Source of the DNA: an uncultured Paracoccaceae bacterium
GTDB lineage: Bacteria > Pseudomonadota > Alphaproteobacteria > Rhodobacterales > Rhodobacteraceae
Direction: 5' to 3'
DNA length: 64,000 nucleotides
Assembly: GCA_947492585.1 (NCBI GenBank)
Contig: CANLND010000011.1
Span: 79,719 to 143,718 of the forward strand
A program made the translations under genes and the position numbers. Under the pieces are notes generated by a model. It searched no databases, had not been told where the DNA came from, and saw nothing but the letters and a program-made list of their open reading frames with translations. Position 1 is the stretch's first letter; each line of letters starts with the position of its first letter. This document shows, one piece after another, positions 29,103 to 46,597 of this stretch.

Positions 29103-29456
29103 ATGCGATATATTTATGTCAGCCTCGGATGTCTGTGTGTTGGGCTGGCTGTGATTGGAGCTGCTCTGCCTCTGCTCCCAACTGTACCGTTCCTATTGCT
29201 TGCTGCGTTTTTCTTTGCCCGGTCATCTAGCCGTTTGCACGGTTGGCTTACAAACCACCGAAGCTTTGGACCTATGATACAGGATTGGCAAACCAACGGC
29301 GCGATTCGACCAAAGGCAAAGACGGCAGCAACCCTATCTGTCGCTGCCGCCTTTGGTTTGTCTCTGGTTTACGGATTGGCATGGCATATTCTTGCGCTCC
29401 AAGCCGTCACACTCAGCTGTGTGATGTTGTTTATCTGGACCAGGCCTAGCGGCTGA
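29103..29456 (+). CDS. DUF454 (YbaN-like) inner membrane protein
   Basis: A 117-residue protein with three to four hydrophobic helices. The N-terminal pattern GLAVIGAALPLLPTVPFLLL followed by AAFFFARSS, HGWL and GPMIQDWQ is characteristic of the DUF454/YbaN family. Function is unknown. It begins one base after the hemW stop, so it is part of that operon, and its 3' end overlaps the 3' end of parB on the other strand by 11 bases. Confidence 0.82.
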   Translation: MRYIYVSLGCLCVGLAVIGAALPLLPTVPFLLLAAFFFARSSSRLHGWLTNHRSFGPMIQDWQTNGAIRPKAKTAATLSVAAAFGLSLVYGLAWHILALQAVTLSCVMLFIWTRPSG

Positions 29457-30339
29457 GCAGATTACACAACTCGTCCAGCTGGTCCAGATTGTCATAACTG
29501 ATCGTAATAGAGCCAGATTCCCCACCCGCAGGATGATCGATCGACACCTGCATCCGCAAAGCCGCTGCAAGGTCACCTTCTAACGCACGCGTATCAGCAT
29601 CTTTATCACCCGCGGGCTTGGCTTTGCGCTTTGAGACAGGCTTTTCACCTGAAACATCCTTTTTCACCAACGCTTCGGTTGCACGCACAGACAAGCCGCC
29701 TTTGACAATCTTCCTTGCCAAATCCGATGCATGATCTGATGTAATCAACGCCCGCGCGTGACCAGCGGACAACTGGCGCTCATGCACCAACTGCTGCACG
29801 TCATCTGGCAAATGCAACAAACGCACCAGATTTGCGATGTAGCTCCGGCTTTTGCCAAGCGCTTCAGCCATCTTCTCCTGCGTATGGCCAAATTTTTCCA
29901 TCAACTGCTTATAGCTCAGCGCCTCTTCCATCGCATTCAGATCTGAACGCTGAATGTTCTCGATGATGGCGACTTCCATCATTTCAACGTCGGAATAGTC
30001 ACGAACCAGAACTGGAACTTCGTGCAGCTTGGCGCCTTGCGCCGCACGCCAACGACGTTCACCAGCGACAATTTCATACATGCCGCCAGGACGTGGCCGA
30101 ACGATCAGAGGCTGAAGAACACCTTTTTCACGAATAGACGCCGTGAGGTCATCAAGATCATCCTGCAGAAACTGACGCCGCGGCTGATCAGGATTTGCCC
30201 GAACCTTTTCAATAGGAACAAGAACTTCTGCGTTACGGGGTGCCTGCGTTGCAGTGCTTACGGGTTCAGGATTTACGTCTGCCATCAATGCCGATAATCC
30301 ACGACCTAGGCCGCGGGGTTTTCCCTTTTCTTTTACCAT
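29446..30339 (-). CDS. parB: Chromosome partitioning protein ParB
   Basis: A 297-residue CTP-dependent clamp that loads at parS and spreads along the origin region. The N-terminal CTP-binding motif is GERRWRAA, then ENIQRSDLNAMEEA, a helix-turn-helix (EKMAEALGKSRSYIANLVRL), a charged linker and a C-terminal dimerisation segment. It is downstream of parA with a 20-base gap. Its binding sites are the parS copies at 31732 and 33643. Confidence 0.96.
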   Translation of the reverse strand: MVKEKGKPRGLGRGLSALMADVNPEPVSTATQAPRNAEVLVPIEKVRANPDQPRRQFLQDDLDDLTASIREKGVLQPLIVRPRPGGMYEIVAGERRWRAAQGAKLHEVPVLVRDYSDVEMMEVAIIENIQRSDLNAMEEALSYKQLMEKFGHTQEKMAEALGKSRSYIANLVRLLHLPDDVQQLVHERQLSAGHARALITSDHASDLARKIVKGGLSVRATEALVKKDVSGEKPVSKRKAKPAGDKDADTRALEGDLAAALRMQVSIDHPAGGESGSITISYDNLDQLDELCNLLSR

Positions 30340-30359: not shown

Positions 30360-31169
30360 TTACGCCGCAATATTTTGATGTTTTTCCAACATCTCGCTAG
30401 CTAGGTCTCGGTAAGCCCTAGCGCCGGTAGAATTACTGTCGTAGCTGAGCACTGGCATCGCATATGATGGTGCCTCACTGACTCGAACATTGCGCGGGAT
30501 CTTTGTCTCAAAGACCAGCTCGCCCAAGTTGTCCCGCGCATCCTGCTCAACCTGCAACGACAAATTATTTCTCCGATCATACATCGTAAGAACGACGCCT
30601 TCGATCCGAAGATTTGGATTTGCGGACTGGCGAACGTCGCGAATGGTTAGCATCAGTTGAGAAACCCCTTCCAATGCAAAAAATTCGCTTTGTAGTGGAA
30701 TCAAAACTGAATTTGACGCGACCATTGCATTCACTGTCAGAAGGTTCAGGGACGGTGGGCAATCGATTAAAATGTAGTCAAAATCGTAATCATCCATTAA
30801 CGGTTGCCGAAGCGCATCATGTAATAGAAAGCTACGCTTTTCATTCGCAAACAGCTCAATGTCGGCGGAACTCAAATCTACCGTTGCGGGTATTATGCAA
30901 AGATCTTCGATATCCGTCTGGCGGATCACATCGACAAGGGCTGCATCTTCAACCAATAGATCATAGGTAGTGTGTACCCGGTCCTGGGCTTCGATTCCCA
31001 ATCCTGTTGACGCGTTTCCCTGAGGGTCTAAATCTACAACAAGGACTCTTACACCGCTTTCGACAAGCGCTGCCGCCAGATTTATTGCCGTTGTTGTTTT
31101 CCCGACGCCCCCCTTCTGATTTGCTACCGCGATAATGCGAGGCCCAGATGGCCGGGAAAAGTCAGACAC
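30360..31169 (-). CDS. parA: Chromosome partitioning ATPase ParA
   Basis: A 269-residue deviant Walker ATPase (NQKGGVGKTTTAINLAAAL, the signature lysine preceding GKTT; Walker B YILIDCPPSLNLLTVNAM). Together with ParB it segregates origins. The start is taken at the GTG at 31169, because AGGGGG lies seven bases upstream on the minus strand; a TTG two codons earlier would leave no proper spacing. The GTG overlaps the rsmG stop by 8 bases. Confidence 0.94.
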   Translation of the reverse strand: MSDFSRPSGPRIIAVANQKGGVGKTTTAINLAAALVESGVRVLVVDLDPQGNASTGLGIEAQDRVHTTYDLLVEDAALVDVIRQTDIEDLCIIPATVDLSSADIELFANEKRSFLLHDALRQPLMDDYDFDYILIDCPPSLNLLTVNAMVASNSVLIPLQSEFFALEGVSQLMLTIRDVRQSANPNLRIEGVVLTMYDRRNNLSLQVEQDARDNLGELVFETKIPRNVRVSEAPSYAMPVLSYDSNSTGARAYRDLASEMLEKHQNIAA

Positions 31170-31779
31170 GGGCAATCCCCCTAATTTTCAAAATAACAGC
31201 TTTTGGTTCTGTCTTACTTGTAACGCTTTCATAATCAAACTGCCATTGCAGCTTGGCGTTATCCACTTCTTTTTTCCAAGTTTCGCCTTTTGGAAAGACA
31301 GCTACACCACCTTCGGCGAGATGCTGATCACAGAATTCAAGGAGATCTGACAAGTCAGCGAGAGCGCGAGCGGACAATACATCGGCGTTCTGTGGTTCGA
31401 TCTGTTCAATTCGTTTACTGATCACGGATATCTTAATACCACATTCTCGCGCTGCATTGCGCAAAAACGCAGACTTCCGCTGATCGCTTTCCACCAGGGT
31501 AAAATTGGTCTCCGGGTTTTTTTCATGAGCCAAAATCGCCGCTACAATTCCCGGAAATCCCCCACCACTCCCGATGTCCATCCAATGAGCGGTTCGCTCT
31601 ACACACCGAAAGACCTGAACCGAATCCTGAATATGACGGACCCAAAGATGGTCAAGGCTGTTGCGAGAAACCAGATTGATCTTTGGATTCCACTTGCGCA
31701 AAACTTGTTCAAAAGCCTTTAGTCGCTCGAATGTTTCACGTGAAACATTCAATTGCGTAAGTAGGTCGATTTCACTCAT
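31162..31779 (-). CDS. rsmG: 16S rRNA m7G527 methyltransferase RsmG (GidB)
   Basis: A 205-residue SAM-dependent methyltransferase for G527 of 16S rRNA. The SAM-binding motif is [16 protein letters not shown], with [16 protein letters not shown] and PKGETW downstream. Codons near the N-terminus ([10 protein letters not shown]) are written with a perfect parS site (31732-31747). It overlaps mnmG by four bases and parA by eight, giving the mnmG-rsmG-parA-parB operon typical of many bacteria. Confidence 0.95.
31732..31747. promoter_or_regulatory. parS centromere site inside rsmG
   Basis: TGTTTCACGTGAAACA, an exact match to the universal bacterial parS palindrome. It encodes part of NVSRETF in RsmG. 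It shares 23 bases, including the flanking GCTCGAA, with the second copy at 33643. Confidence 0.97.
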
Positions 31780-33659
31780 GCGCGACGCGCTCCTTTAAGC
31801 CTATCGCGTTTTAATCGCGCCAATATCAACGCCAACGCTGCCGGCGTAACACCTTCGACGCGCGCGGCCTGAGCGAGGCTTTCAGGCCTGGCGTGTGTCA
31901 ACTTCAGGGTCACCTCGTTGGACAGCCCATCAACCAATCCAAAATCGAAGTCATCCGGGATCCGATACCCTTCGTCCCGCTTCATGGCGGCAATTTCGCG
32001 AGTTTGTCGAGAAATATAGTGCGCGTACAGTGCGTCTCGTTCAACCTGTCGACGAATTTCAAGCTCCGTCCCCTCGAGCTCCGGCATCAATGCTACGAGA
32101 TCTTCAAAAACGACGTCCGGAAATGCGAGGATATCAGCGCCCGACCGCTTGTTCCCATCTTGGTTTACCTTAATACCCGCCTGTAGAACTTGTTTGGGTG
32201 TAAACTCTTGGTTGGTCAAAGCCGATTGAGCAACTTCAAGCTTTTCCCTCTTCTTTTCAAACAGAATCTTACGCGCTTCAGATGCACATCCAAGCTCCAT
32301 TGCCAGCGGCGTAAGTCGTTGGTCTGCATTGTCCGCCCGTAGGGATAGACGGAATTCTGCTCGGGATGTGAACATACGGTAAGGTTCAGATACGCCATTT
32401 GTAGTAAGATCGTCGATCATTACCCCAATATAGCTATTTGAGCGACTAAACAGAAGGGGATCCCTATTTTGACTTGCACGAGCTGCGTTTAATCCAGCGA
32501 CCATTCCCTGAGCCGCAGCCTCCTCGTAGCCCGTTGTGCCGTTGATCTGCCCCGCAAGGTAGAGACCCGGTATATCATTGAGAGCCAATTGGAGATTCAG
32601 AGATCGTGGGTCGATGTAGTCATACTCAATCGCATAGCCTGGCTGCAGAATTTTTGCATTTTCCAGACCGTAGATTGAATGAACATACTCTTCCTGTACG
32701 TCTTCCGGAAGACTCGTAGAAATCCCGTTTGGATAAACGGTATGATCATCAACGCCCTCGGGTTCCAAAAAGATTTGATGCGATGTTTTGTCGGCGAACC
32801 GGACAATTTTATCTTCGATAGACGGACAATAGCGCGGGCCAACACCTTCGATGTGTCCGCCATACATAGCAGAGCGCTCGAGATTTTGGCGAATGATATC
32901 ATGCGTCTTTTCATTTGTATGTGTAATTCCGCAACTTACCTGCTTCGCTGACAGGTGCTTTGTCTTAAACGAGAAAAACACCGGATCCTCGTCTCCTGGC
33001 TGCGCTCCCAAGAGATTCCATTTTATGGTGCGTCCATCCAGGCGTGGGGGAGTTCCAGTTTTTAGACGCCCCAGCGGTAGACCAAAGCTATCCAATCGTT
33101 CTGCCAACTTAATTGATGGTCTATCTCCAAACCGTCCCCCTGGACGCGATATATCGCCGATATGAACGACACCGCGCAAAAACGTCCCTGAGGTCAATAT
33201 GACGGATGTGCTGGTGATTTCGCTTTTATCTTGAAGTACAACACCAGAAACGCGGTCTCCTGCCATGATGAAGTCGACGACCTCACCTTCGATAATGTCC
33301 AGGTTCGGTTGAGATATCGTCAGTTTCAACATCTCTGCGCGGTAGATACCGCGGTCAGATTGTGCTCGGGGACCCTGCACTGCGGGCCCTTTTCGACGGT
33401 TCAGTAGTCTGAACTGAATACCCGCGAGGTCAGCCACATACCCCATCACGCCGTCCATGGCATCAATTTCTCTGACGAGATGCCCTTTTCCAAGCCCACC
33501 AATGGCGGGATTACACGACATCACGCCGATTCCGGATTTATCCAGCGTAACCAAGGCCGTTCGGACACCCATCCGGGCCGCAGCATGCGCCGCCTCGGTA
33601 CCCGCATGGCCACCACCCACAACGACAACATCATAGCTCGAATGTTTCACGTGAAACAC
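31776..33659 (-). CDS. mnmG: tRNA uridine 5-carboxymethylaminomethyl synthase MnmG (GidA)
   Basis: A 627-residue FAD enzyme that with MnmE modifies U34 of tRNAs. The FAD-binding motif is [40 protein letters not shown] and [20 protein letters not shown] follow, as do the C-terminal [18 protein letters not shown] segments. The first codons, MFHVKH, are a parS site read as protein. It is three bases downstream of mnmE and overlaps rsmG by four bases. Confidence 0.97.
33643..33658. promoter_or_regulatory. parS centromere site at the mnmG start
   Basis: TGTTTCACGTGAAACA, an exact parS match covering all but the first base of the start codon and codons 2-6 of mnmG (MFHVKH). It lies 3.2 kb from the centre of the predicted origin. 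Confidence 0.97.
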
Positions 33660-33662
33660 TCC

Positions 33663-34949
33663 TTATTTACCAAGGCAAAAACTGGAAAAGATCTCATCCA
33701 GCAAGTTTTCAACACCAACACGGCCAACCAACATTTCAAGTGATCGGATCGCGGATCTTATGTCTTCTGCTGCTATATCATAGAATTCAGATCCGCGCTG
33801 CAAGATCGTTTGCGCCTCGCTCAAACTCATCAAAGATGACAACATAGCCTCGCGATGACGCGCACGTGTCGCTATCCCGGCGCCGGTAGAACGCTTTTGA
33901 AGATTCTTGGAAATTTCTGCAATCAACGCATCCACACCCTGCCCGGTCTTTCCAGAAATCGCGCCGGCGGAGTCCTGACGTTGATCCGCCTTGGGCAACA
34001 TTCGAATATCACCAGAACGTAACTCAACATCCAATACTTCGTCCGCTTCAACCAGAAAAACGCGCAGATCAGCAGCTTCTGCACGGTCCTTGGCGCGTTC
34101 GATTCCTATACCTTCGACGTGATCATCCGTCTCTCTCAGGCCGGCGGTGTCGAGCAAGGTCACAGGCAAGCCGGCAAGATCCATACGCACTTCGATCACA
34201 TCACGGGTGGTCCCGGCAAATTCTGAAGTAATTGCAGCATCCCGGCCAGAAAGCGCGTTCAATAGAGTCGATTTTCCAACGTTAGGAGCGCCAACAATTG
34301 CCACTTCAAAACCATTACGGATGCGTTCCGCAATTTGCACACCAGAGGTCTCTTTCTCCAAATCTGTTTTGACGCCGGCAAGAAGCGCGGTGACTTCGGG
34401 GGTGACATCTACTGGAACATCTTCGTCGGCAAAGTCGATCGTGACCTCAATCAACGATGCGGCGCGAATTAGATCAATGCGCCACCGCTCAGCCAGATCT
34501 CCGAGCGCGCCGGCAAGAATAACCTGCGCTTGCCGGCGTTGCGCTTCGGTCTCAGCATCAATCAGGTCTGCGAGACCCTCAACCTGAGCCAAATCAAGCT
34601 GACCATTTTCCAATGCCCTGCGAGTGAACTCTCCCGGTTCAGCCATACGCGCGCCGGCGACTAAGCCCAAAGCCTCTAGTACCGCAGAAACAACTGCCGT
34701 GCTGCCGTGCACTTGCAGCTCGACTGTATTTTCCCCGGTAAAACTGTGCGGTGCGGTGAACGTGAACACCAATGCTTCATCCAACACATTGCCGGCCGCA
34801 TCTACCAAAACGCGTAAACCCCTGCCGGCGATGGGCAGAGGTTTGGTGCAGAGTGCCTGACTGACTTCAAAAGCCTGAGGCCCGGAAACGCGGATCACCG
34901 CGACGCCGGCCTTACCTTGGGCGGTGGCCAGCGCAAATATTGTATCCAT
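33663..34949 (-). CDS. mnmE: tRNA modification GTPase MnmE (TrmE)
   Basis: A 428-residue GTPase partner of MnmG. The N-terminal tetrahydrofolate-binding domain is followed by helical [19 protein letters not shown] and the G domain: G1 [15 protein letters not shown]2 GTTRD, G3 DTAGL. The protein ends in CLGK, the family's invariant C-terminal C-[ILV]-GK. Its coding sequence holds ten of the GCCGGC palindromes reported as a finding, a remarkable density for one gene. Confidence 0.96.
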
Positions 34950-34980
34950 GGGACGGCGGTCCTTTCTTGCCGGCGATGGA

Positions 34981-36252
34981 TTAGGTGTTCATCGAATCGA
35001 AGAACTCACCGTTGGATTTGGTCTGCTTCAGCTTGGAAAGCAGGAACTCAATCGCATCGGTGGTGCCCATCGGGTTAAGGATTCGACGCAACACAAATGT
35101 TTTCGCCAGATCTCCCTTGTCGACCAGCAGGTCTTCTTTACGTGTTCCGGATTTGAGAATGTCGATGGCCGGGAACACACGCTTGTCTGCAATCTTACGA
35201 TCCAGAACCAGTTCCGAGTTACCAGTGCCTTTGAATTCTTCGAAGATAACTTCGTCCATGCGACTACCAGTGTCGATCAACGCGGTTGCGATGATGGTCA
35301 AGGAACCGCCTTCTTCGATATTCCGGGCAGCGCCAAAGAACCGCTTGGGGCGTTGCAGAGCATTGGCGTCCACGCCACCAGTTAGTACTTTGCCTGAAGA
35401 TGGCACCACAGTGTTGAAAGCTCTACCAAGTCTTGTGATTGAGTCAAGCAAGATCACAACATCTCGTTTGTGTTCCACCAAACGCTTGGCTTTTTCGATG
35501 ACCATTTCGGAGACAGCCACGTGACGTGTTGCCGGCTCGTCAAAGGTGGAGGAGACAACTTCGCCCTTTACCGAGCGCTGCATGTCGGTCACCTCTTCGG
35601 GACGTTCGTCAATCAGCAGGACGATCAAGTAACACTCAGGGTGGTTCTTTTCGATCGAGTTGGCGATGTTTTGTAGAATAACGGTTTTACCGGTGCGCGG
35701 AGGTGCAACAATCAACGAACGTTGCCCCTTACCAATTGGTGCAACCAGATCAATCACGCGCGCGGATTTGTCCTTGATGGTAGGATCTTCAACTTCCATC
35801 TTCAGACGCTCATCAGGATAAAGCGGCGTTAGGTTGTCAAAGGCGATCTTGTGGCGCGCTTTTTCTGGCTCTTCAAAGTTGATTTTGGTCACATTGGTCA
35901 GCGCAAAATAGCGCTCATTTTCCAACGGAGCTTTGATGAAGCCTTCCACTGTGTCGCCTGTGCGCAGGGACAACTGGCGGATCATTTCTGGCGAAACATA
36001 GATATCGTCTGGACCCGGAAGATAGTTTGCCTCAGGCGAGCGCAGAAATCCAAATCCGTCTTGCAGAACCTCCAGCACACCATCGCCGGCGATCTGCCAT
36101 CCTTCATCCGCGCGTTCACGCAGAATCTGGAACATCATCTCTCCCTTACGCATGGTGGACGCGTTTTCAATCTCAAGCTCTTCAGCCATCGACAAAAGTG
36201 CTTTGGGGCTTTTCGCTTTGAGATCAGCGAGATTCAGCATTTGCTCGGTCAT
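34981..36252 (-). CDS. rho: Transcription termination factor Rho
   Basis: A 423-residue hexameric RNA helicase. It has the N-terminal RNA-binding domain ([20 protein letters not shown] with [16 protein letters not shown]) and the ATPase domain with Walker [11 protein letters not shown], Walker [16 protein letters not shown] and the Q-loop region [16 protein letters not shown]. It lies 31 bases upstream of mnmE on the same strand. The 126 bases between it and hemJ hold no recognisable gene. Confidence 0.97.
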
Positions 36253-36378
36253 AGGGATACGGCCTTTGGCGCCCAGAATTTGGGGGCAGTTTCGCAGAGA
36301 ATATGGAAAACACGGTCACCCGGACGGGGCCGTTTGATAGCTTCATAAGGACTCGCCAAAGATGAGTCAAATACGGTC

Positions 36379-36834
36379 TCAGAATTTGAAGACCACGGAA
36401 ACAACGATAATCACCATCAAAACCGTAGGAACTTCATTCATCAACCGGAATTGCCGGCCAGTGAGCCTGTTTTGATCCGCTTTGAAGTCACGATGACGGT
36501 ATAACAGCCAGTGATGAAACCAAGTCATTGCCAATACCCCGCAGAGCTTCGTCCAGGGCCATAGAGAGGCCCAATCTACAATTCCGGGGGTCAGGGCCAT
36601 AAAAAGCCCTGCAAGCCACGTGACGATGCTTGCAGGGCGCATGATGACCTTCAACAGCTTCTCCTGCATGATTAAGAACACAGGTCGGCATTCTTTCACA
36701 TTCGAAGCTTGCTCCACATGATACACGAACAGTCGGGGCAAATAGAACAAACCAGCCATCCACGAGATCACTGCCATGATGTGGAGAGATTTCGCGTATG
36801 GGTAAAGCGTGTACATCTGATCAGCGAGGGTCAT
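36379..36834 (-). CDS. hemJ: HemJ-type protoporphyrinogen IX oxidase
   Basis: A 151-residue membrane protein with four hydrophobic helices. SLHIMAVISWMAGLFYLPRL, FVYH and KLLKVIMRPASIVTW are the conserved UPF0093/HemJ segments, including the histidine in LH that is thought to bind heme. It oxidises protoporphyrinogen IX in heme synthesis in organisms without HemG/HemY. It is the first minus-strand gene left of the predicted origin, which fits the hem genes that flank alphaproteobacterial origins. Confidence 0.9.
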   Translation of the reverse strand: MTLADQMYTLYPYAKSLHIMAVISWMAGLFYLPRLFVYHVEQASNVKECRPVFLIMQEKLLKVIMRPASIVTWLAGLFMALTPGIVDWASLWPWTKLCGVLAMTWFHHWLLYRHRDFKADQNRLTGRQFRLMNEVPTVLMVIIVVSVVFKF

Positions 36835-36865
36835 GGGCTGTGTCTTTCGATCAAAGGGACCCCCC

Positions 36866-36888
36866 TTAAATATATATATATATTTTAA
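36866..36888. other. AT-only tract, candidate DNA unwinding element
   Basis: A 23-base stretch without G or C, made of a TA-repeat core between TTAAA and TTTTAA, close to a palindrome. It is the most easily melted DNA in the window and sits on the hemJ side of the DnaA boxes. Confidence 0.65.
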
Positions 36889-37023
36889 GAGGATGATGTT
36901 TTTGTAGGGTCAGTGGATTCCAGTGGATAATTGAATCTTCCCATGGCTTATCCCCAGCTTGAACAAGTTTCTAGGCCTTTGGGCTGATTCTGTGTGCGAC
37001 TCATTTGAAGGCTTATGCAAATA

Positions 37024-37049
37024 GGCTGAGTCGCAAAAACGACTCAGCC
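37024..37049. repeat. Perfect inverted repeat inside the predicted origin
   Basis: GGCTGAGTCG and CGACTCAGCC are perfect 10-base complements separated by CAAAAA. Each arm contains one GANTC site, and a GCCGGC palindrome overlaps the right edge. There is no T tract, so a terminator is unlikely. Confidence 0.85.
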
Positions 37050-37247
37050 GGCCGAATCTGGGGATAACTTCTGGGGGAATCGCCGGCGAATCTTTTTTCC
37101 CGATTTTCAGAGTTATCCTCATCCACTTTGGGCGAATCTGCCGGCGACTCAGCTGAGATTTTAGCGTTACCCCCGGGTTGCGATTTTTGCTCAGATTCAT
37201 ACAAACCATCCTGAAACCATTTCCATATTGCACACGGGGTTTTCCAC

Positions 37248-37847
37248 ATGTCTGCCCACATCATTCTTGCCTCAGGATCTGAGATCCGGGCGCAGCTTCT
37301 GCGCAATGCAGGTGTCCCCATTCATGTGGCACCCGCCCGCGTGGACGAGCAGAGCTTAAAACAGGCGCTGTTGGCCGAAGCCGCCTCTCCGCGAGATATT
37401 GCAGATGCGCTGGCCGAAGCAAAGGCCCGCAAAGGCAGCGGTAAACATTGGGGTGAATTGGTACTGGGCTGTGATCAAGTGTTGGAATTTGAGGGGCAAA
37501 TTTTGTCCAAACCCACATCGCAGGATGAGGCTTTTGATCAGCTAAAAAAGATGCGCGGCAAGCGGCATGTGTTGTTGTCTGCGGCCGTTATATATAAGGA
37601 CGGGCAACCTCTGTGGCGCCACGTTGGACAGGTTCGCCTGCGTATGAGAGCCAGTTCGGATAAATATCTGCGTGATTATGTGGCGCGCAATTGGGATAGC
37701 ATCCAACACGCGGTTGGGGGCTACAAACTGGAAGAAGAAGGCGTACGGCTGTTCTCTAACGTTGAAGGCGACTACTTTAACGTTTTAGGTTTACCGCTGT
37801 TGGAGCTTTTGAACTATCTCGGTCTGCAAGGAGTGATTGAGCAATGA
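37248..37847 (+). CDS. maf: Maf-family nucleotide pyrophosphatase
   Basis: A 199-residue Maf protein, a nucleoside triphosphate pyrophosphatase acting on modified or noncanonical nucleotides. The N-terminal [18 protein letters not shown] and [19 protein letters not shown] are the family's signature regions. The ATG overlaps a DnaA-box-like sequence (37240-37248). It is the first rightward gene from the predicted origin and overlaps aroE by four bases (ATGA). Confidence 0.9.
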
Positions 37848-38677
37848 GTGATGCAAAAATTCCCCTCGCCGGCGTGATCGGTAACCCGATATCCCATTCG
37901 AGATCTCCGTTACTGCACAATCACTGGTTAAGAACCTATGGTATCGCGGGTCACTACATCCCGATGCATGTGGAATCTGACGATTTGGAGCGGGTAATCC
38001 GCACATTGCCACAAGCCGGCTTTGTAGGGGCGAATGTGACCATTCCGTACAAAGAGGCCGTGATGAAAATCGCGGATCAGGTGACTGATCGTGCAACTTT
38101 GATGGGCGCTGCCAACACCCTGATTTTTCGTGCTGATGGTACGATCCTGGCTGACAATACAGACGGCTATGGTTTTATTACAAATTTGGCACAATCTGCT
38201 CCGGATTGGCAGCCTGCCTCAGGGCCGGCTGTGGTGTTTGGGGCCGGCGGGGCCTGCCGTGCGGTGATTGCCTCACTTCTGGAAGCTGATGTGCCGGAAA
38301 TCCTGCTGACCAACCGCACGCGAGATCGCGCAGAACAGCTGCAACAAGACTTTGGTCCCAAAGTCCGGGTGGTGGATTGGATCCAAGCTGCCAATATCGT
38401 TGAAGAAGGCAAGCTGGTGGTCAATACCACGTCGCTGGGCATGGTTGGTAAATCGCGACTGCGTATTCCATTGGATGGGTTGCGCTCTGATGCGTTGGTG
38501 ACGGATTTGATCTATACTCCGCTCAAGACCGATCTTTTGGCGACGGCTGAGGAAATGGGCTGCACCACAGTCGATGGGCTGGGCATGTTACTGCATCAGG
38601 CGGTGCCAGGATTTGAACGCTGGTTCGGACAACGCCCCGAAGTAGATGAGGCTGCCCGCGCGGCCGCTTTGGCATGA
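37844..38677 (+). CDS. aroE: Shikimate dehydrogenase
   Basis: A 277-residue NADP-dependent enzyme of the shikimate pathway. The substrate-binding segment is [16 protein letters not shown]; the catalytic lysine is in [10 protein letters not shown]; the nucleotide-binding loop is [15 protein letters not shown] followed by NRTRDRA. It overlaps maf upstream and coaE downstream by four bases each, so the four genes maf-aroE-coaE-dnaQ should be one transcript. Confidence 0.95.
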
Positions 38678-39267
38678 ACTTCAAACTCGGGCTGACTGGC
38701 TCCATTGGTATGGGGAAATCGACCACAGCTGGGCTGTTTGCGGATGCGGGTTGCGCTGTGTGGGATGCGGATCAGGCGGTGCACCGTTTGTACGCGATTG
38801 GCGGGGCGGCCGTGGACCCGATGCGCGAGGCCCTGCCTGAGGCACTAACAAACGGTGCCGTTGATCGTGCAAAACTGCGCCGGCTGATCGCCGGCGATCA
38901 GCACCTGCTATCTCTGATCGAAAAAATCGTGCATCCGCTAGTTCAGGCCGACCGCAAGTCGTTTTGTGATGCAATCACCGCAGACGTATTGGTTTTCGAC
39001 ATACCGCTATTGTATGAAACTGGTGCTGAGACCGAAATGGACGCGGTGGCCTGTGTGCATGTGTCGCCGGCGACGCAGAAACAACGGGTGTTGGCACGCG
39101 GCACCATGGACGAAACTCAGTTTGCCCAGATCCTTGCCAAACAAATGCCCATCGCTGAAAAAATCGCGCGGTCGGATTTTTTGATAGAAACGGATACGCT
39201 GGACCACGCCAGAACTCAGGTGCGCGATATTCTTGTCCAGATCAGAGAACGGAAACCCCATGCGTGA
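38674..39267 (+). CDS. coaE: Dephospho-CoA kinase
   Basis: A 197-residue kinase for the last step of coenzyme A synthesis. The P-loop is LTGSIGMGKSTT, followed by the conserved DADQAVHRLY and DIPLLYETG. It is overlapped by aroE (4 bases) and dnaQ (8 bases). Confidence 0.95.
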   Translation: MNFKLGLTGSIGMGKSTTAGLFADAGCAVWDADQAVHRLYAIGGAAVDPMREALPEALTNGAVDRAKLRRLIAGDQHLLSLIEKIVHPLVQADRKSFCDAITADVLVFDIPLLYETGAETEMDAVACVHVSPATQKQRVLARGTMDETQFAQILAKQMPIAEKIARSDFLIETDTLDHARTQVRDILVQIRERKPHA

Positions 39268-39997
39268 GATTGTTCTAGATACAGAAACCACCGGATTTGA
39301 CCCTAATTCCGGGGATCGGATTGTGGAAATCGGGGCGGTGGAACTGTTGAACCATATGCCCACCGGGGAAACCTACCACGTCTATATCAACCCGCAACGT
39401 GCAATGCCGGCCGAAGCCTTTGGCGTGCATGGCATTGGCCCGGATCTATTGGAGCCTCCGCAACAGCCCGGCCCCGGTGCCGTCACGCTGCGTGACAAAC
39501 CGGTGTTTGCCAAAGTAGGTCAGGGTTTTTTGGATTTTGTCCGCGATTCAACGATGGTCATCCACAACGCGTCGTTTGACATGAAATTCCTGAACGCCGA
39601 GCTGGGCTGGATGGGCTTGCCGCAACTGCCGATGTCACAGGCCTTGGATACATTGGCCATCGCGCGCAAACGCTTTCCGGGTTCTCCGGCGACGCTGGAT
39701 GCATTGTGCCGTCGATTTAACATCGATAACTCCAATCGAACGCTGCACGGCGCATTGCTCGACTCTGAAATCCTCGCCGAAGTATATTTGGAACTGATTG
39801 GAGGGCGTCAGCCTGATTTTGGTCTGTCGGCCACTGCGGGCAATACCGGCAGTGCAGGTCAAAACGCAGATGAGTGGCGCCCCGAACCGCGACCAACCCC
39901 GCTGCCCTCGCGACTGACGGCTGAGGAAAAAGCAGCCCATGATGACTTTGTTGAAAAAATGGGCGATGAAGCGCTGTGGAAGACGCTGGGATCTTGA
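39260..39997 (+). CDS. dnaQ: DNA polymerase III epsilon subunit (proofreading exonuclease)
   Basis: A 245-residue DEDDh exonuclease. Exo I is VLDTETTGFD, exo II includes VIHNASFDMKFLNAE, and exo III is RTLHGALLDSEILAEVY with the catalytic His. The C-terminal extension (about 190-245) probably contacts the polymerase alpha subunit. The ATG at 39260 overlaps the coaE stop. A strong bidirectional terminator follows. Confidence 0.95.
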   Translation: MREIVLDTETTGFDPNSGDRIVEIGAVELLNHMPTGETYHVYINPQRAMPAEAFGVHGIGPDLLEPPQQPGPGAVTLRDKPVFAKVGQGFLDFVRDSTMVIHNASFDMKFLNAELGWMGLPQLPMSQALDTLAIARKRFPGSPATLDALCRRFNIDNSNRTLHGALLDSEILAEVYLELIGGRQPDFGLSATAGNTGSAGQNADEWRPEPRPTPLPSRLTAEEKAAHDDFVEKMGDEALWKTLGS

Positions 39998-40660: not shown

Positions 40661-41173
40661 TTATTTTGGCCCATCCACCCATTTTGATGGGTTTGAGGGA
40701 TCGTGATGGGGAGTCAGGTCTTCATAGTCTCCATCGATGATATCTTTGGTGGGATCTGATGGTCTGCGCGGATCAAACCCCGCACCATGAGCTTGAAACC
40801 CGTTGGTGCCCATTTGAAAGTTGGCGACATTGATGCGCGCACGCAGAAATTTATAGGCGGCCTCACGAAAACGTGGGACCAGCAATGCAAAGCCCACCGC
40901 ATCCGTAAAAAAACCGGGTGTCAACAACAGCGCGCCGGCAAATAAGATCATCGCTCCATGTGCCAAAGGTTCGGCGGGATCTGAGAGTGTTTCGAACGAG
41001 TTACGCATCTGTCCCATGGCCAATTTACCCTGCGCTTTGACCAGTTTTGTGCCCAAAATCGCGGTGAGGATGACAATCAATAGCGTCGGCCACAAGCCGA
41101 TCGCGCCGCCCACCTGGATGAACAGGGCGATCTCAATCACCGGCACCAGCAAAAAAGCCATAAAAAGATACAT
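40661..41173 (-). CDS. fxsA: FxsA-family membrane protein
   Basis: A 170-residue protein with FMAFLLVPVIEIALFIQVGG and LLIVILTAILGTKLVKAQGK, the typical FxsA pair of N-terminal helices, and two further helices (GAMILFAGALLLTPGFFTDAVGFALLVP). The C-terminal tail is soluble. FxsA in E. coli suppresses exclusion of phage T7 by the F plasmid; the wider role is unknown. It is upstream of secB on the same strand with about 100 bases between, and divergent from the Tim44-like gene. Confidence 0.85.
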   Translation of the reverse strand: MYLFMAFLLVPVIEIALFIQVGGAIGLWPTLLIVILTAILGTKLVKAQGKLAMGQMRNSFETLSDPAEPLAHGAMILFAGALLLTPGFFTDAVGFALLVPRFREAAYKFLRARINVANFQMGTNGFQAHGAGFDPRRPSDPTKDIIDGDYEDLTPHHDPSNPSKWVDGPK

Positions 41174-41286
41174 CAGGGTTTCCTTAGTTCATGCGCGCAA
41201 AGGTAGACTTGCCCTACCCTGTCACCTACATAAGACTTGAGCCTTCGGGTTTCAAATAATGCACGAACACCCAGTATGAGGTACAA

Positions 41287-41943
41287 ATGGAGTCTCCCGT
41301 GATTTCGCTTTTGGTTCTGGCCGGCATCGCCATATTTTTGATTCTGCGCCTAAAAAGCGTTTTGGGCACGCGAGAAGGCTTTGAAAAGCCGCGTATGCCG
41401 GAAAACAGCGGGCGCCAAAACCAGCCTGATCTGGAAGTGATCGAAGGCGGTCCTGATAATGATATTACCGACCACGTGCCCGAAGGTAGCGTTCAGTCGC
41501 AAGCATTGGCCGCGATGAAACGGGTCGAACCCGGATTTGGCGTTAGCGATTTTGTTCAGGGCGCGCGCGGTGCCTATGAAATGATCTTGATGGGCTTTGA
41601 AAACGGCGATCTGAATGACATCCAGCCGTTTTTGGCTGAAGACGTATTTGACAGTTTTGTTCAGGCCGTCGCGGAGCGCGAAGATCAGGGGCTGTCGATT
41701 GAGGCCAATTTTATTGGTGTGCGTGAAACCACTTTGTTGAATGCAACTTTTGATGAGGCCACTGGCCTATCGGAAATCACCATGCGCTTCGTCTGTGAGA
41801 TGACATCAGTGGTGCATGATCGCGATGGCAATGTTGTTGAAGGTGATGCGAAAACCATCAAGAAACAAAAGGACACATGGGTGTTTGCCCGTGCCATGGG
41901 TGGAGATGATCCGAACTGGCAACTGGTGGCGACGGACGCATGA
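41287..41943 (+). CDS. Tim44/TimA-domain membrane-anchored protein
   Basis: A 218-residue protein with one N-terminal transmembrane helix (LLVLAGIAIFLILRL), a basic linker and a C-terminal Tim44-like domain (GFGVSDFVQGARGAYEMILM through MRFVCEMTSVV). In Caulobacter the related TimA is an inner-membrane protein. Its start has GAGGTAC upstream, and its stop overlaps mltA by four bases, so the two are translationally coupled. Confidence 0.85.
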   Translation: MESPVISLLVLAGIAIFLILRLKSVLGTREGFEKPRMPENSGRQNQPDLEVIEGGPDNDITDHVPEGSVQSQALAAMKRVEPGFGVSDFVQGARGAYEMILMGFENGDLNDIQPFLAEDVFDSFVQAVAEREDQGLSIEANFIGVRETTLLNATFDEATGLSEITMRFVCEMTSVVHDRDGNVVEGDAKTIKKQKDTWVFARAMGGDDPNWQLVATDA

Positions 41944-42995
41944 CATCGCTGCTCCGGAAGGCATTGGGCGTCACAGCCTTTTGCGGTGCCACAATGGGCG
42001 CCACTTCTGGTGCAGCCTCTGAAGTCACCTATACTCTTTCATCATTTTCCCAGCTTGAAGGTTGGGAAAATGATGATCACGCACATGCGCTGAATGCTTT
42101 TTTGGAAACCTGCATGGATTTGAAGGATCCTGATTGGCAATCGCTGTGTGCCGTGGCGCAGTCGCAAAACCCCAAAAGCGCGCGTACGTTTTTCGAATTG
42201 TTTTTCCGTCCGATGCTGATCTCTGATGGCAAAGACGGGTTGTTTACCGGTTACTTTGAACCCGAATTGGATGGATCGCGCCGTCGTACCAACCGCTTTC
42301 GCTATCCGGTTTACAAGATGCCTCGCGAAGCACGCCAGCCCGGCAGTTGGCTGACACGCCGCGAAATCCTGACCAGTGGGGTTATGGATGGACGCGGACT
42401 GGAAATAGCTTGGGTTGATGATCCGGTAGAACTGTTTTTTCTGCAAATACAGGGGTCTGGTCGTATTCGTTTGCCCGATGGAAACGTGATACGAGTGGGG
42501 TATGGCGGTGCAAACGGACACAATTATCGTTCCATCGGTACTGAACTTGTCCGCCGGGGTGTTTATCAACCGCATCAAGTTAGCGCGCAAGTGATCAAAA
42601 ACTGGGTCAAACGAAACCCAGAATCCGGACGTGAGCTGCTGTTTCACAATCCAACCTATGTGTTTTTTCGTGAGGTGACGCGCGTCAAACCCACCAAAGG
42701 TCCATTAGGCGCAATGAATCGTTCCATCACTGCACTGCGCAGTGTGGCAGTAGATCCGGCCTTTACCCAGTTGGGGGCGCCGGTTTGGTTGGAAAAAGAC
42801 GGCGCAACACCAATGCGCCGCTTGATGATTGCCCAAGATACCGGATCGGCGATCAAGGGTGCGCAGCGGGCGGATGTTTTTTTTGGCACCGGCGATGCGG
42901 CGGGTCTGGCCGCAGGAAAGCTGCGTGATCCCGGTCGCATGTATGTGTTACTGCCCATCCAAAGGGCCTATGCGCTGCTGCCGGAAGATCTTTAA
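41940..42995 (+). CDS. mltA: Membrane-bound lytic murein transglycosylase A
   Basis: A 351-residue periplasmic lytic transglycosylase that cuts the glycan strand of peptidoglycan. A signal sequence (about 1-25) precedes the MltA domain (GLFTGYFEPELDGSRRRTNR) and the C-terminal 3D domain with its conserved aspartates (MIAQDTGSAIKGAQRADVFF and GTGDAA). I see no clear lipobox cysteine, unlike E. coli MltA, so it may be soluble. It is followed four bases later by an Smr gene. Confidence 0.9.
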   Translation: MTSLLRKALGVTAFCGATMGATSGAASEVTYTLSSFSQLEGWENDDHAHALNAFLETCMDLKDPDWQSLCAVAQSQNPKSARTFFELFFRPMLISDGKDGLFTGYFEPELDGSRRRTNRFRYPVYKMPREARQPGSWLTRREILTSGVMDGRGLEIAWVDDPVELFFLQIQGSGRIRLPDGNVIRVGYGGANGHNYRSIGTELVRRGVYQPHQVSAQVIKNWVKRNPESGRELLFHNPTYVFFREVTRVKPTKGPLGAMNRSITALRSVAVDPAFTQLGAPVWLEKDGATPMRRLMIAQDTGSAIKGAQRADVFFGTGDAAGLAAGKLRDPGRMYVLLPIQRAYALLPEDL

Positions 42996-42998
42996 AGA

Positions 42999-43610
42999 AT
43001 GACACGTCGTAAATTGACAAAAGAAGAGCTCGACCTTTGGAAGCAGGTCGCGCAGGAGACCGAACGCCTGCATCCTGATCGCCCTGCGTTTCCGCATGCC
43101 TCAGTTCAGCCCTCTCTTCCGCGAACCAGCAAAAAGAAATCCCAACCCGTCGCGCCAGAGCCGTCACTGCTGGAGGTGTTTGAGGTGGGTAGCAAAGCCA
43201 GATCATCAACGCTTGGGAACAGTCTTAAACCCGCAGTGACCAGTGCACTTGCCGCACGTCCGGTGCAAATGGACGATAAAGCCTTTCGCAAGATGAAACG
43301 CGGCAAACTGAAACCCGAAGGGAAACTGGACCTTCATGGTATGCGTATTGATACCGCGCATCCGGCGCTGACACGGTTTATTTTGCGCGCGCATGCCAAT
43401 GGAAAACGGTTGGTTTTGGTGGTGACGGGTAAGGGCAAAGACCGTGATGAACCAGGCCCAATCCCCGTGCCGCGTGGCGTGTTGCGTCATAACGTGCCGC
43501 AATGGCTGTTGCTGCCGCCGCTGTCGCAGGTGGTATTGCAGGTGACACCGGCCCATATCAGCCATGGTGGCGATGGGGCGTATTATGTGTACCTTAGGCG
43601 CCCGCGCTAA
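42999..43610 (+). CDS. Smr-domain endonuclease-like protein
   Basis: A 203-residue protein. The N-terminal half is basic and probably disordered. The C-terminal half is an Smr (MutS-related) domain with KLDLHGMRIDTAHPALTRFI, VVTGKGKDRDEPG and LRHNVPQWLL, conserved parts of the fold. Smr domains are DNA or RNA nicking nucleases or binders. It is the third gene of the Tim44-mltA-smr operon and converges with hslU. Confidence 0.88.
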   Translation: MTRRKLTKEELDLWKQVAQETERLHPDRPAFPHASVQPSLPRTSKKKSQPVAPEPSLLEVFEVGSKARSSTLGNSLKPAVTSALAARPVQMDDKAFRKMKRGKLKPEGKLDLHGMRIDTAHPALTRFILRAHANGKRLVLVVTGKGKDRDEPGPIPVPRGVLRHNVPQWLLLPPLSQVVLQVTPAHISHGGDGAYYVYLRRPR

Positions 43611-43623
43611 AGATTAGGGTGAA

Positions 43624-43640
43624 GGGGGACCGAAGCCCCC
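43624..43640. terminator. Hairpin between smr and hslU
   Basis: GGGGG ACCGAAG CCCCC lies between the converging stops of smr and hslU. It has no T tract on either strand, so its role as a terminator is uncertain. Confidence 0.4.
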
Positions 43641-43652
43641 ACTCCGCATCCA

Positions 43653-44966
43653 TTATAGAACGTAACGGCTCAGATCCGAAGACCGTGACAGTTCGCCCAG
43701 ATTCTTGCGAACAAACTCGGCATCCACTTTTACCATTTCGCCACTGCGATCAGGTGCGGTAAAGGACAGTTCTTCAAACACCCGTTCAATCACCGTATAA
43801 AGACGGCGTGCACCGATGTTTTCCACGGTTTGGTTCACCTCAGCCGCAATTTTCGCCAGCGCGGCAATGCCGTCTTCGGTGAAATCGACAACCACCTCTT
43901 CCGTGCCCATCAACGCAGTGTATTGCCGCGTCAAGGCATTGTCTGTCTCGGTCAAAATACGCACGAAGTCTTCTTCTGTCAGTGGACGTAGGTTGACACG
44001 AATAGGCAGACGCCCCTGTAATTCGGGCAACAAATCCGAAGGCTTGGCAATGTGGAACGCACCCGAGGCAATAAACAGAATGTGATCGGTTTTAACCGGC
44101 CCATGTTTGGTGCTGACAGTGGTGCCTTCGATCAGTGGCAAGAGATCACGTTGCACGCCTTCCCGACTGACATCGCCGCCACGGGCATCCGAGCGCGCGC
44201 AGACTTTGTCGATTTCATCCAAGAATACGATGCCGTTCTGCTCAACCGATTCCAATGCAGCCTTGTTGACGGTTTCATCATCCAACAGTTTGTCGGCTTC
44301 TTCGCCGATCAGCACATCATAGCTTTGGGAGACGGTGAGTTTTTTGCGGGTGGTGCGACCTCCCATGGCTTTGCCAAACAATTCTCCAAGGTTCATCATG
44401 CCCATATTGCCGGCGCCGGGTTGTCCGGGGATCTCGAACATGTTGCCCATGGGGTTCGACGAGTCAGCCACGTCCAGTTCGATCACGGTGTCGTCCAGAT
44501 CGCCGGCTTTTAGCTTTTTACGGAACATATCCAAGGTGGCTTCGCGGGCGTCTTCGCCGGCGATGGCAGCCAAAACGCGGTCTTCTGCGGCTTTGTGGGC
44601 TTTAACTTTTACATCTTCGCGCATCAGCTCACGGGTTTGTAGGATCGCGGCATCGACGAGATCCCGCACGATCTGCTCGACGTCGCGCCCGACATACCCC
44701 ACTTCGGTGAATTTTGTGGCTTCAACCTTCAAAAACGGTGCGCGGGCCAGTTTTGCCAGCCGGCGAGAGATTTCGGTCTTACCTACACCAGTGGGGCCAA
44801 TCATCAGAATGTTCTTGGGGTAGACTTCGTCGCGCAGGTCATCATTCAGCTGCTTGCGGCGCCAGCGGTTGCGCAGGGCAACGGCGACAGCCCGTTTGGC
44901 GTCATTTTGACCAATGATGTAACGGTCCAGTTCCGAGACGATTTCGCGAGGGGTGAGATCAGTCAT
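43653..44966 (-). CDS. hslU: HslU ATPase subunit of the HslVU protease
   Basis: A 437-residue AAA+ unfoldase. The N-terminus ([20 protein letters not shown]) and Walker [20 protein letters not shown] are typical, the Walker B region is [10 protein letters not shown], and the sensor/C-terminal tail ends in the conserved SRYVL that inserts into HslV. Normally hslU follows hslV directly; here a membrane-protein gene sits between them (44979-46043). Confidence 0.95.
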
Positions 44967-44978
44967 GAGTATCCTGAG

Positions 44979-46043
44979 TTAGTGAGAGGGCGGCAGCCGG
45001 TGTACCGGCACAACGCCCGAAATGAGAGACAGAAGCGTGGCGCGAATGCGGGTCCAGAACGCTCCAAGAAAGACAAGGAAAACGCCAAGCGCGAGCACTG
45101 TCATCGCGGCCCCTTCCCCATCAAATACGGTTGAGGCCAGCGTCACGATATAGCCAATTGCGGCAATCAGGAACGAACGCCGATCGATGACGATAGCCAC
45201 CAGCGCAAACACCGCAAGAACGGTCAACAGCATCACGTCAGAGCTGCTGTTTTCCTGTGCCATCAGCGACAGGGCAATGGTGTTGACCAGTGCAGGTGCG
45301 GCGACAACATGCAGCCAGAATCCTTGTGCCGAACGGCGCGTTACCCGGTGTGGATCCGAGAGATCAAACCACATTGCGACAGCAAAGACAGCAAGCCCCA
45401 CGGCCAGCGTGACATAGGCGAATGGTCCATTTGCTGACAGTAGGAAAAGATCGCTGAACTGGTCAGGTGCGCCGGCGTTCTGACCTGCGATCAACAGCGC
45501 CAGTGCAAAGACACCCAACGCAATCAAAGCCATGGCAAACGGTACTTTGAACCGCAGCCAAAACAATAACACTGCTCCTGTGGTCAACAACAAAGGCATC
45601 GGCAGACTGGAATAGTCCTGCTGTGCGATCATGAAAGGTTCGGAAAAATAGGCGCTGAGGCCGGCACCTGCGTTCCCGGCAAACAAAATAGAGAGCGCAA
45701 TTGCAGGTGCCACCATACGTCGCCGACGAATGAAATATTCCGAAAGCCCCCACAAAATGCCGCCACCTATCACGGCAGTCCACGTGATCTGTGACTGAAA
45801 ATGGGTCACCTGCCCGGCCATTGAAATGCCGTTCACGGTGATCCAGCCGGTTGCCAGAATGATCAGGCCAATAACGATGAAAATCTCGTTGAAGCCTTTG
45901 AACAGTTCAAACGGCTCATCGCCCTCGCGCAGGCCTTCGCGTGCGCCGCGTCGGCTGTCCGACAAGGCTTGCAACGAGGCGGCTTGGGCCTCAGAGACGA
46001 GTCCCGCGCCCACCGCTGCACGAAGGTCATCGCGTGAAATCAT
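44979..46043 (-). CDS. Multi-pass membrane protein (DUF2157-like)
   Basis: A 354-residue protein with about ten hydrophobic helices after a soluble N-terminal region (about 1-45) containing [18 protein letters not shown]. That N-terminus and the helix-rich remainder resemble the DUF2157 family, whose function is unknown. It overlaps hslV by four bases (ATGA) and ends 12 bases before hslU, so it is embedded in the hslV-hslU operon. Confidence 0.72.
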
Positions 46044-46597
46044 GCCCGGATGCTTTCAACTGTGAGTTTGCCATTGGTATAAACGCAGATGTCCGCCGCG
46101 ATGGCCATCGCATCACGGGCGACTTGTTCGGCGGATTTGTCACTGTCCATCATGCCGCGCGCTGCCGCCAAGGCAAAGTTGCCGCCGGAGCCAATCGCCG
46201 CGACGTTGTGCTCTGGCTCCAGCACGTCGCCGGCACCGGTGATGACAAACAGATCGCTGCCATCGGTCACGATCAACATTGCTTCCAGTTTTTGCAGGTA
46301 CTTATCGGTGCGCCAGTCTTTGGCCAGCTCCACGCTCGCACGCGCCAACTGGCCCGGAGTCGTCTCTAATTTGGTTTCCAGCCGTTCCAGCAGGGTAAAC
46401 GCATCCGCGGTTGAACCTGCAAATCCGGCAACGACGTCATAGCCCCCGGGCGAAAGGCGGCGCACCTTGCGGGCGGTGCCCTTGATCACGGTTTGCCCCA
46501 GCGACACCTGTCCGTCGCCGGCGATGACGATTTCATCGCCTTTTTTTACGCCAATGATTGTGGTGCCGTGCCAGCCTGGGAATTGCTCGTCTGCCAT
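46040..46597 (-). CDS. hslV: HslV peptidase subunit of the HslVU protease
   Basis: A 185-residue threonine peptidase of the proteasome beta fold. The N-terminus reads [20 protein letters not shown]; the nucleophile is probably Thr12 after removal of an 11-residue propeptide, a feature of many alphaproteobacterial HslV proteins, whereas in E. coli the Thr follows the initiator Met. GDGQVSLG and [20 protein letters not shown] are conserved. A candidate heat-shock-like promoter is reported upstream. Confidence 0.94.

Follow-up and report, generated by a model that had tools for sequence, protein, structure and literature searches.

A GCCGGC array at a predicted chromosome origin suggests that a NaeI-type restriction-modification system was drawn into marking or guarding the origin of a marine bacterium

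Introduction

In Escherichia coli, SeqA binds hemimethylated GATC for the sequestration of the origin of replication. The sites of this Dam/SeqA/GATC system are clustered in and near oriC, and methylated motifs are also enriched near the origin of Shewanella oneidensis (both in excerpts of PMC13076061). In the ScmA/VsrA system of Caulobacter, cytosine methylation takes place at YGCCGGCR and the methyltransferase ScmA is solitary (excerpts of PMC12907096). Restriction enzymes of type IIE, including NaeI, are stimulated by further sites, which possibly spares the cell's own DNA when methylation lags, and NaeI is described as looping DNA (excerpts of PMC4081073). Here we report a dense array of the palindrome GCCGGC around the predicted oriC of an uncultured Paracoccaceae bacterium, and a NaeI-type restriction-modification (R-M) system encoded on another contig of the same genome. 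The array lies in a stretch of 64,000 nt (contig CANLND010000011.1, positions 79,719-143,718), hereafter the window, in whose numbering coordinates are given; an earlier note, written from the letters of the window, had drawn attention to it.

As in the Dam/SeqA/GATC system, predicted methylation sites cluster at this origin, 3 GCCGGC and 12 GANTC being found in a 413-bp oriC; unlike that system, the enzymes are a cytosine methyltransferase and an endonuclease, the array extends over more than 5 kb to a parS-type site, and SeqA was not found in the eight genomes searched. The CcrM/GANTC system of alphaproteobacteria is reflected in a cluster of GANTC interspersed with GCCGGC in this oriC, but CcrM is an adenine methyltransferase and the GANTC cluster is confined to ~0.3 kb of oriC. 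ScmA/VsrA offers a precedent for alphaproteobacterial cytosine methylation of the same core motif, and a Vsr gene stands beside NaeI in five Leisingera-clade genomes; ScmA is solitary, however, whereas a NaeI gene adjoins the methyltransferase gene here, and no origin enrichment is seen in the excerpts of the Caulobacter study (PMC12907096). The type IIE R-M system of NaeI itself (PDB 1ev7, 1iaw; PF09126) likewise comprises an endonuclease of this family with an adjacent methyltransferase gene. It is known as a restriction enzyme, whereas the locus described here is shared across genera and its sites are enriched at the host origin. The earlier note's author had not seen the motif described in such a role, and we found no description of GCCGGC or NaeI sites at origins in the open-access (PMC) literature.

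Results

GCCGGC is packed around the predicted origin

Between 33963 and 39411 the window holds 25 copies of GCCGGC (4.6/kb), and every start listed in the earlier note proved exact, as did its totals of 22 copies in 0-33.6 kb, 35 in 33.6-46.6 kb and 13 in 46.6-64 kb. The window as a whole carries 70 copies; dinucleotide shuffles averaged 35.9 (sd 6.0), none of 100 reaching 70, and the 5.77-kb core holds 24 where a dinucleotide model expects 2.42. With distance, the observed-to-expected ratio (O/E) declines from 8.7 in the core to 2.53 in the near flanks (26-33.6 and 40-47 kb), 1.07 in the remaining window and 0.85 at 37-77 kb from the core. The main parts of the array are as follows.

33963..39411, no strand: core array, 25 GCCGGC; at most 7 per 5,449 bp in an 874-kb sample of the genome elsewhere
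33963..34974, no strand: densest cluster, 11 copies, all in mnmE except one in the mnmE-rho gap; situated between the parS-type site at 33644 and the predicted oriC
33663..34949, minus strand: mnmE (Pfam), host of the densest cluster
40934..46522, no strand: outer shoulder, 10 more GCCGGC

As the earlier note had it, the copies lie in genes of unrelated function and between genes, 21 being genic and four intergenic: ten in mnmE, one in the mnmE-rho gap, two in rho, one in hemJ, three in the hemJ-maf intergenic region (oriC), none in maf, four in aroE, three in coaE and one in dnaQ. The preference for a flanking pyrimidine and purine that had also been proposed did not hold up as a property of the peak: it is weak, 13 of the 25 copies there reading YGCCGGCR against 339 of 948 genome-wide, and on the same counts we rejected this longer sequence, the ScmA site of Caulobacter, as the true motif.

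The array exceeds what codon usage and base composition produce

That the array might be an artefact of composition or codon usage could be argued from the 21 of 25 copies that are genic, some of them in codon contexts permitting GCC and GGC, and from a maximal-order Markov model, under which the core excess is just 1.61 (rank 56 of 64 palindromes). The Markov excess is small because the motif itself inflates the 5-letter sub-words of the model. When the synonymous codons of the seven peak genes were shuffled, a control that the earlier note had called for, 21 observed copies compared with a mean of 4.76 (sd 1.86, maximum 11 in 1000 shuffles); redrawing the codons of the same genes from the usage of the window gave a mean of 4.70 and again a maximum of 11. 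In mnmE alone, 10 sites were found against 1.19 after synonymous shuffling (maximum 5 in 1000). The GC content of the peak is ordinary and not above that of the rest, and seven other palindromes made only of G and C had window maxima no higher than in the genome sample. The shuffles, the control palindromes and the four intergenic copies led us to reject composition or codon usage as the cause, and we give such an origin of the array next to no chance.

Elsewhere in the genome the palindrome is scarce. The total is 948 GCCGGC in 3,587,845 bp (0.26/kb), and CGGCCG, the same letters backwards, is commoner (1469). In 45 further stretches outside the window (873,641 bp, 24% of the genome), density was 0.251/kb and no 5,449-bp window held more than 7 copies, against 25 at the origin. 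The claims that the enrichment is linked to the origin and goes beyond codon bias were supported by the genome sample and the synonymous shuffles. GCCGGC is avoided in this sample (O/E 0.38-0.49, third most avoided of 64 palindromes); CCCGGG, GAGCTC and CTGCAG show avoidance of similar strength, and avoidance by itself is therefore no proof of restriction.

A NaeI-type R-M system is encoded in the same genome

A cytosine-5 methyltransferase gene (G000:C7:143214-144173; PF00145, 1.8e-68) is followed 24 bp downstream by the gene of a 302-aa NaeI-family endonuclease (PF09126, 1.6e-55), the pair spanning G000:C7:143214-145106. The endonuclease aligns with crystallised NaeI (1ev7) at 1.5e-32 and with PADLOC REase_II at 6e-36; no NCBIfam model was found. 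Its VEI and VDxK segments, which we take to contain the catalytic residues of NaeI, are retained and were identical in 16 of 16 sequences. NaeI recognises and cuts GCCGGC, the motif of the array, and the enzyme of this genome should recognise the same sequence. The best PADLOC model for the methyltransferase is the Druantia methylase DruM (1.5e-142), followed by type II methyltransferases; the enzyme would be expected to modify GCCGGC. In a search for cytosine methyltransferases over 45 genomes, one family, defined by match length and score, was shared by this genome, by all but one of 18 others classed as enriched at that stage, and by a number of non-enriched genomes; the 16 methyltransferase genes that were fetched clearly form one family.

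The pair sits among three tRNA-Gly(GCC) genes (L103, 9008-11585), with pyc on one side and an aminotransferase-hisB block on the other, a setting repeated in all six further R-M loci whose tRNAs were scanned. Of the 16 loci fetched, 12 come from peak genomes and four from genomes without a peak; 15 keep the same gene order and the 16th ends at a contig break. The locus is common to Leisingera, Phaeobacter and Tritonibacter relatives, within which the system appears to have been inherited vertically. In T. mobilis G043, the three tRNA genes stand side by side and the R-M place is empty. The tRNA-Gly direct repeats could delete the cassette, and may explain why several draft assemblies break there. 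Across the order, 33 of 390 genomes have NaeI, and these belong to 18 of 139 genera.

In seven pairs of genomes, dN/dS was 0.016-0.052 for the methyltransferase, like that of hisB and pyc, and 0.07-0.27 for NaeI, which was under the weaker purifying selection in all seven. An open NaeI frame stands beside the methyltransferase in all 16 fetched loci. In one genome without a peak (L019), the methyltransferase is split over two frames beside an open NaeI frame (L247, 2322-3277).

Among 93 roseobacter genomes an origin peak was seen only where NaeI is present

Origin loci were collected from 80 named loci in one scan, from 18 origins of the genus (this genome included) and from 40 more members of the order. 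From 121 loci, four that were too short and six duplicates were removed, leaving 111 rows, of which 14 without a NaeI test and four with the R-M place at an assembly break were set aside, for a total of 93 roseobacter genomes. A peak was defined as an O/E of at least 2.4, a cut-off chosen after inspection of the data; for the regression, O/E was kept as a continuous variable. A peak was present in 27 of 54 genomes with NaeI and in none of 39 without (Fisher 1.3e-8, kinship ignored). In a phylogenetic regression, NaeI was associated with an O/E higher by 0.72 log2 units (p=0.015), and the same regression for seven control palindromes gave p=0.36-0.73. The rows set aside for assembly breaks were L006, L029 and L031, in which a contig ends at the R-M place, and L025, in which the methyltransferase lies at a contig end; scoring all four as lacking NaeI gave p=0.021, and one peak genome then lacks NaeI. 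In Tritonibacter litoralis (L006) a peak is present and neither the methyltransferase nor NaeI was found. One contig, however, stops 690 bp after pyc and another 242 bp beyond the match to the aminotransferase, which leaves the R-M place in a gap of the assembly and makes the seeming exception one of missing data.

On a quick FastTree tree, all but one of the 27 peak genomes with NaeI belong to a single 46-genome clade, L207 being outside. Within this clade the peak seems to go back to the ancestor of the Leisingera, Phaeobacter and Tritonibacter parts and to have disappeared from the seven-genome group around T. mobilis, no member of which has a copy at 28 of the 39 listed site positions. In two members of that group (L010, L015) NaeI was not found though pyc and hisB share one contig, a third (L012) has just a divergent NaeI (54%) located elsewhere, and a fourth (L020) has both methyltransferase and NaeI and an O/E of 1.9. 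The other three are G043, with its empty R-M place, L019, with the split methyltransferase, and L025, one of the rows set aside. Among peak genomes, some positions are common to as many as 21 of the 26 aligned, and 31 of 78 are private to one, a pattern more in keeping with selection for density than for particular positions. The genus itself is bimodal, seven of 18 genomes having 2.1-4.0 copies/kb around rho and 11 at most one copy. In T. multivorans (G017), the origin pieces held 14 and 19 copies per 5.4 kb and the other 18 of 20 pieces no more than 6; in G364, of the Leisingera clade, the origin had an O/E of 2.9, the piece next to it 1.71 and the 19 others 0.20-1.35.

Densities per feature were compared between 27 peak genomes (L006, with its assembly gap, included and L034, with four copies, left out) and the 39 NaeI-lacking ones. 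They came to 4.90 and 0.60/kb in mnmE, 16.5 and 0.00/kb in the mnmE-rho gap, 0.58 and 0.02/kb in rho, and 4.26 and 0.22/kb in oriC; hemJ shows no excess (0.57 and 0.58/kb). Much of the segment from parS to oriC is therefore filled. The oriC region holds GCCGGC in 27 of 28 peak rows, and in 26 of 51 NaeI-bearing against 3 of 34 NaeI-lacking rows.

GCCGGC is interleaved with GANTC in the predicted oriC

The features of the origin region proper are listed below.

36835..37247, no strand: predicted oriC, hemJ-maf intergenic; AT tract, five DnaA-like boxes, 12 GANTC and 3 GCCGGC in 413 bp
36866..36888, no strand: alternating AT-rich tract, candidate unwinding element, read from the sequence
37041..37058, no strand: composite GACTC-a-GCCGGC-c-GAATC, from the sequence
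37077..37092, no strand: composite GAATC-GCCGGC-GAATC, from the sequence
37134..37150, no strand: composite GAATC-t-GCCGGC-GACTC, from the sequence
33644..33657, no strand: parS-type site GTTTCACGTGAAAC, perfect match, at the mnmG start and adjoining the densest cluster
31733..31746, no strand: second parS-type site, perfect match
30360-31175, minus strand: parA (Pfam)
29446-30339, minus strand: parB (Pfam)

By these features, region 36835-37247 looks like oriC. The five DnaA-like boxes have one mismatch each, the last extending 1 base into maf; in the window as a whole such boxes number 16 against 10.0 expected, a figure reached in 9 of 100 shuffles. GC skew flips sign within 36-38 kb. The 12 GANTC fall within 283 bp (36916-37198) of a window that is depleted of this site overall (110 vs 257 expected). 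Leisingera-clade relatives have 5-9 GANTC in oriC and most other roseobacters examined 0-5.

All three GCCGGC of oriC are flanked on both sides by GANTC at a spacing of 0-1 bp, and the copy at 37140 is kept in 18 of 26 aligned peak genomes. None of the 219 GCCGGC in the genome sample lies between two GANTC, and three have a one-sided GANTC within 4 nt. In the origin loci of relatives, a GANTC was found within 4 nt for 31 of 53 copies in oriC against 77 of 1720 outside it. The median number of GANTC per oriC was 5 where GCCGGC is present there (32 genomes) and 2 where it is not (74 genomes), kinship being ignored. Seven peak genomes have GCCGGC in oriC with no GANTC within 4 nt (L008, L023, L033, L064, L187, L189 and L207). 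A parS-type site occupies the mnmG-start place in 27 of 27 peak genomes and in 38 of 39 NaeI-lacking ones.

Discussion

The earlier note had offered an architectural, a methylation or a segregation role for the motif. Methylation has gained the most evidence, from the methyltransferase beside NaeI and the restriction of the peak to NaeI-bearing members of the 93 genomes, and the abutment of the densest part of the array on a parS-type site is compatible with segregation or architecture. We consider a link between the array and the R-M system fairly well supported and probable. The reading we prefer, to which we would give about an even chance (0.5), is that GCCGGC is the site of a long-resident NaeI-type R-M system and has been kept dense at the origin by selection, with a mechanism of methylation and cutting included.

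Under this proposal, methylation of the array would mark new origins and make their methylation state readable. After a normal initiation the origin would be hemimethylated and safe from NaeI; were it to fire again before re-methylation, one daughter duplex would be unmethylated at many clustered sites, the best substrate for a two-site (type IIE) enzyme, and the re-initiated copies would be destroyed while lone unmethylated sites elsewhere would be spared. An array at the origin with avoidance elsewhere is to be expected on these terms, because clusters at the origin would be a wanted substrate and scattered sites a hazard. The decay of density with distance might correspond to the reach of stray re-replication forks, and the GANTC-GCCGGC-GANTC composites could let CcrM methylation and the NaeI-type mark act on the same DNA. 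Cutting of re-initiated origins by NaeI is a tentative element of this scheme, with the odds against it. More speculative still is its full form, in which a complete type II R-M system would have turned into a replication-licensing device, the origin being re-marked once per cycle, NaeI removing copies that re-fire early and the parS-oriC array serving as the target.

A number of observations weigh against the preferred reading. The densest cluster sits in mnmE, 2-3 kb from oriC. SeqA was found in none of the eight genomes, with a positive control in E. coli, and no reader protein is known. T. mobilis (G016/G043), which lacks NaeI, is also poor in GCCGGC (905 vs 1354 CGGCCG), and in the Leisingera clade GCCGGC outnumbers CGGCCG in 12 of 13 genomes, G034 showing the reverse; avoidance is therefore no clean sign of restriction. 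With 27 NaeI-bearing genomes devoid of a peak, NaeI is not sufficient, and it brings no peak on its own, since outside the 46-genome clade median O/E is 0.64 with NaeI (15 genomes) and 0.70 without (36). Genomes with NaeI group together on the tree; under a pure Brownian model, with the four rows at assembly breaks scored as lacking NaeI, the regression gave p=0.058, and a test on independent pairs yielded six pairs, of which about one was informative. The G364 peak, finally, is weak, with at most 14 copies per 5.4 kb at the origin against 15 in the densest other piece.

The main rival dispenses with cutting: hemimethylated GCCGGC at the origin would be bound by a sequestration protein, and NaeI would be a passenger of the methyltransferase. 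The stronger constraint on the methyltransferase in all seven pairs speaks for it, as does the clustering in oriC of GANTC, another methylation site, the more so where GCCGGC is present; the negative search for SeqA and the persistence of an open NaeI frame in 16 of 16 loci, with no decay to a solitary methyltransferase, speak against it, and we hold it possible, with the odds against it. Less likely again is a separate segregation or nucleoid-shape protein using GCCGGC near parS and oriC, the link to the R-M system then being a coincidence of shared ancestry. Palindromic sites that thin with distance resemble macrodomain motifs, and the array lies in the stretch from parS to oriC with its greatest density next to parS, but a second factor of the same 6-bp specificity would be needed, and a peak is found in none of the 39 NaeI-lacking genomes.

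Two further accounts leave the array without a function at the origin or without a benefit to the host. Avoidance might merely be relaxed near oriC, where extra sister copies permit repair of cuts. GCCGGC is indeed avoided in the genome sample, and the outward gradient of O/E (2.53, 1.07, 0.85) is of the kind expected; relaxation could restore an O/E of ~1 and explain the outer gradient, but not the 8.7 of the core, which makes this quite improbable as an account of the array. We think still less of selfish addiction, in which sites at the origin would make loss of the R-M system deadlier and so stabilise it. The tRNA-Gly repeats, which could delete the system, would give such a device its occasion; an R-M system, however, is unable to place sites in host genes, the host gains nothing, and T. 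mobilis G043 lives without the cassette.

Restriction systems are usually regarded as means of defence or as selfish elements, and host genomes tend to avoid their sites. Here the genome avoids the sites and yet packs them at its origin, and among relatives such packing is found only where the endonuclease is present. If the preferred reading is true, it would provide a direct case of an R-M system in housekeeping work, and the need of type IIE enzymes for several sites would gain an explanation open to testing. Two of the relatives, Phaeobacter and Leisingera, can be grown in culture.

Further observations

Another cytosine methyltransferase of the same genome is Dcm-like, and a Vsr gene lies next to it (G000:C10:13786-15049; L122). 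Vsr mismatch endonuclease genes adjoin NaeI in the five Leisingera-clade genomes at the following places.

G025:C13:76286, Vsr-NaeI neighbours
G026:C19:196109, Vsr-NaeI neighbours
G364:C1:2736314, Vsr-NaeI neighbours
G263:C1:2711738, Vsr-NaeI neighbours
G033:C2:258009, Vsr-NaeI neighbours

The excess of GCCGGC over CGGCCG in this clade is what very-short-patch repair might produce. As a partner of the array Vsr was rejected: present in 15 of 30 genomes and beside NaeI in these five, it does not track the peak.

Enrichment at replicon origins in general was likewise rejected, GCCGGC being rare in two plasmids of Phaeobacter inhibens DSM 17395 (first 50 kb of each: 14 copies where 42.5 are expected, and 26 where 56.8 are). 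No rise at the replication gene was seen in the whole of pPGA1_78; in 70 of the 262 kb of pPGA1_262, seven copies lie in 10 kb around the replication genes, above the rest of the plasmid and not above expectation. NZ_CP081253.1 (L253), labelled a Phaeobacter inhibens plasmid, opens with parA (86% to that of the window), parB, hemW, rph, hrcA, grpE and mutS, and appears to be either a chromosomal fragment or a misassembly. Three records titled Nocardioides marinus, Polycyclovorans and Flavobacteriia (L024, L081 and L083) hold roseobacter-type origin loci, and their names look wrong.

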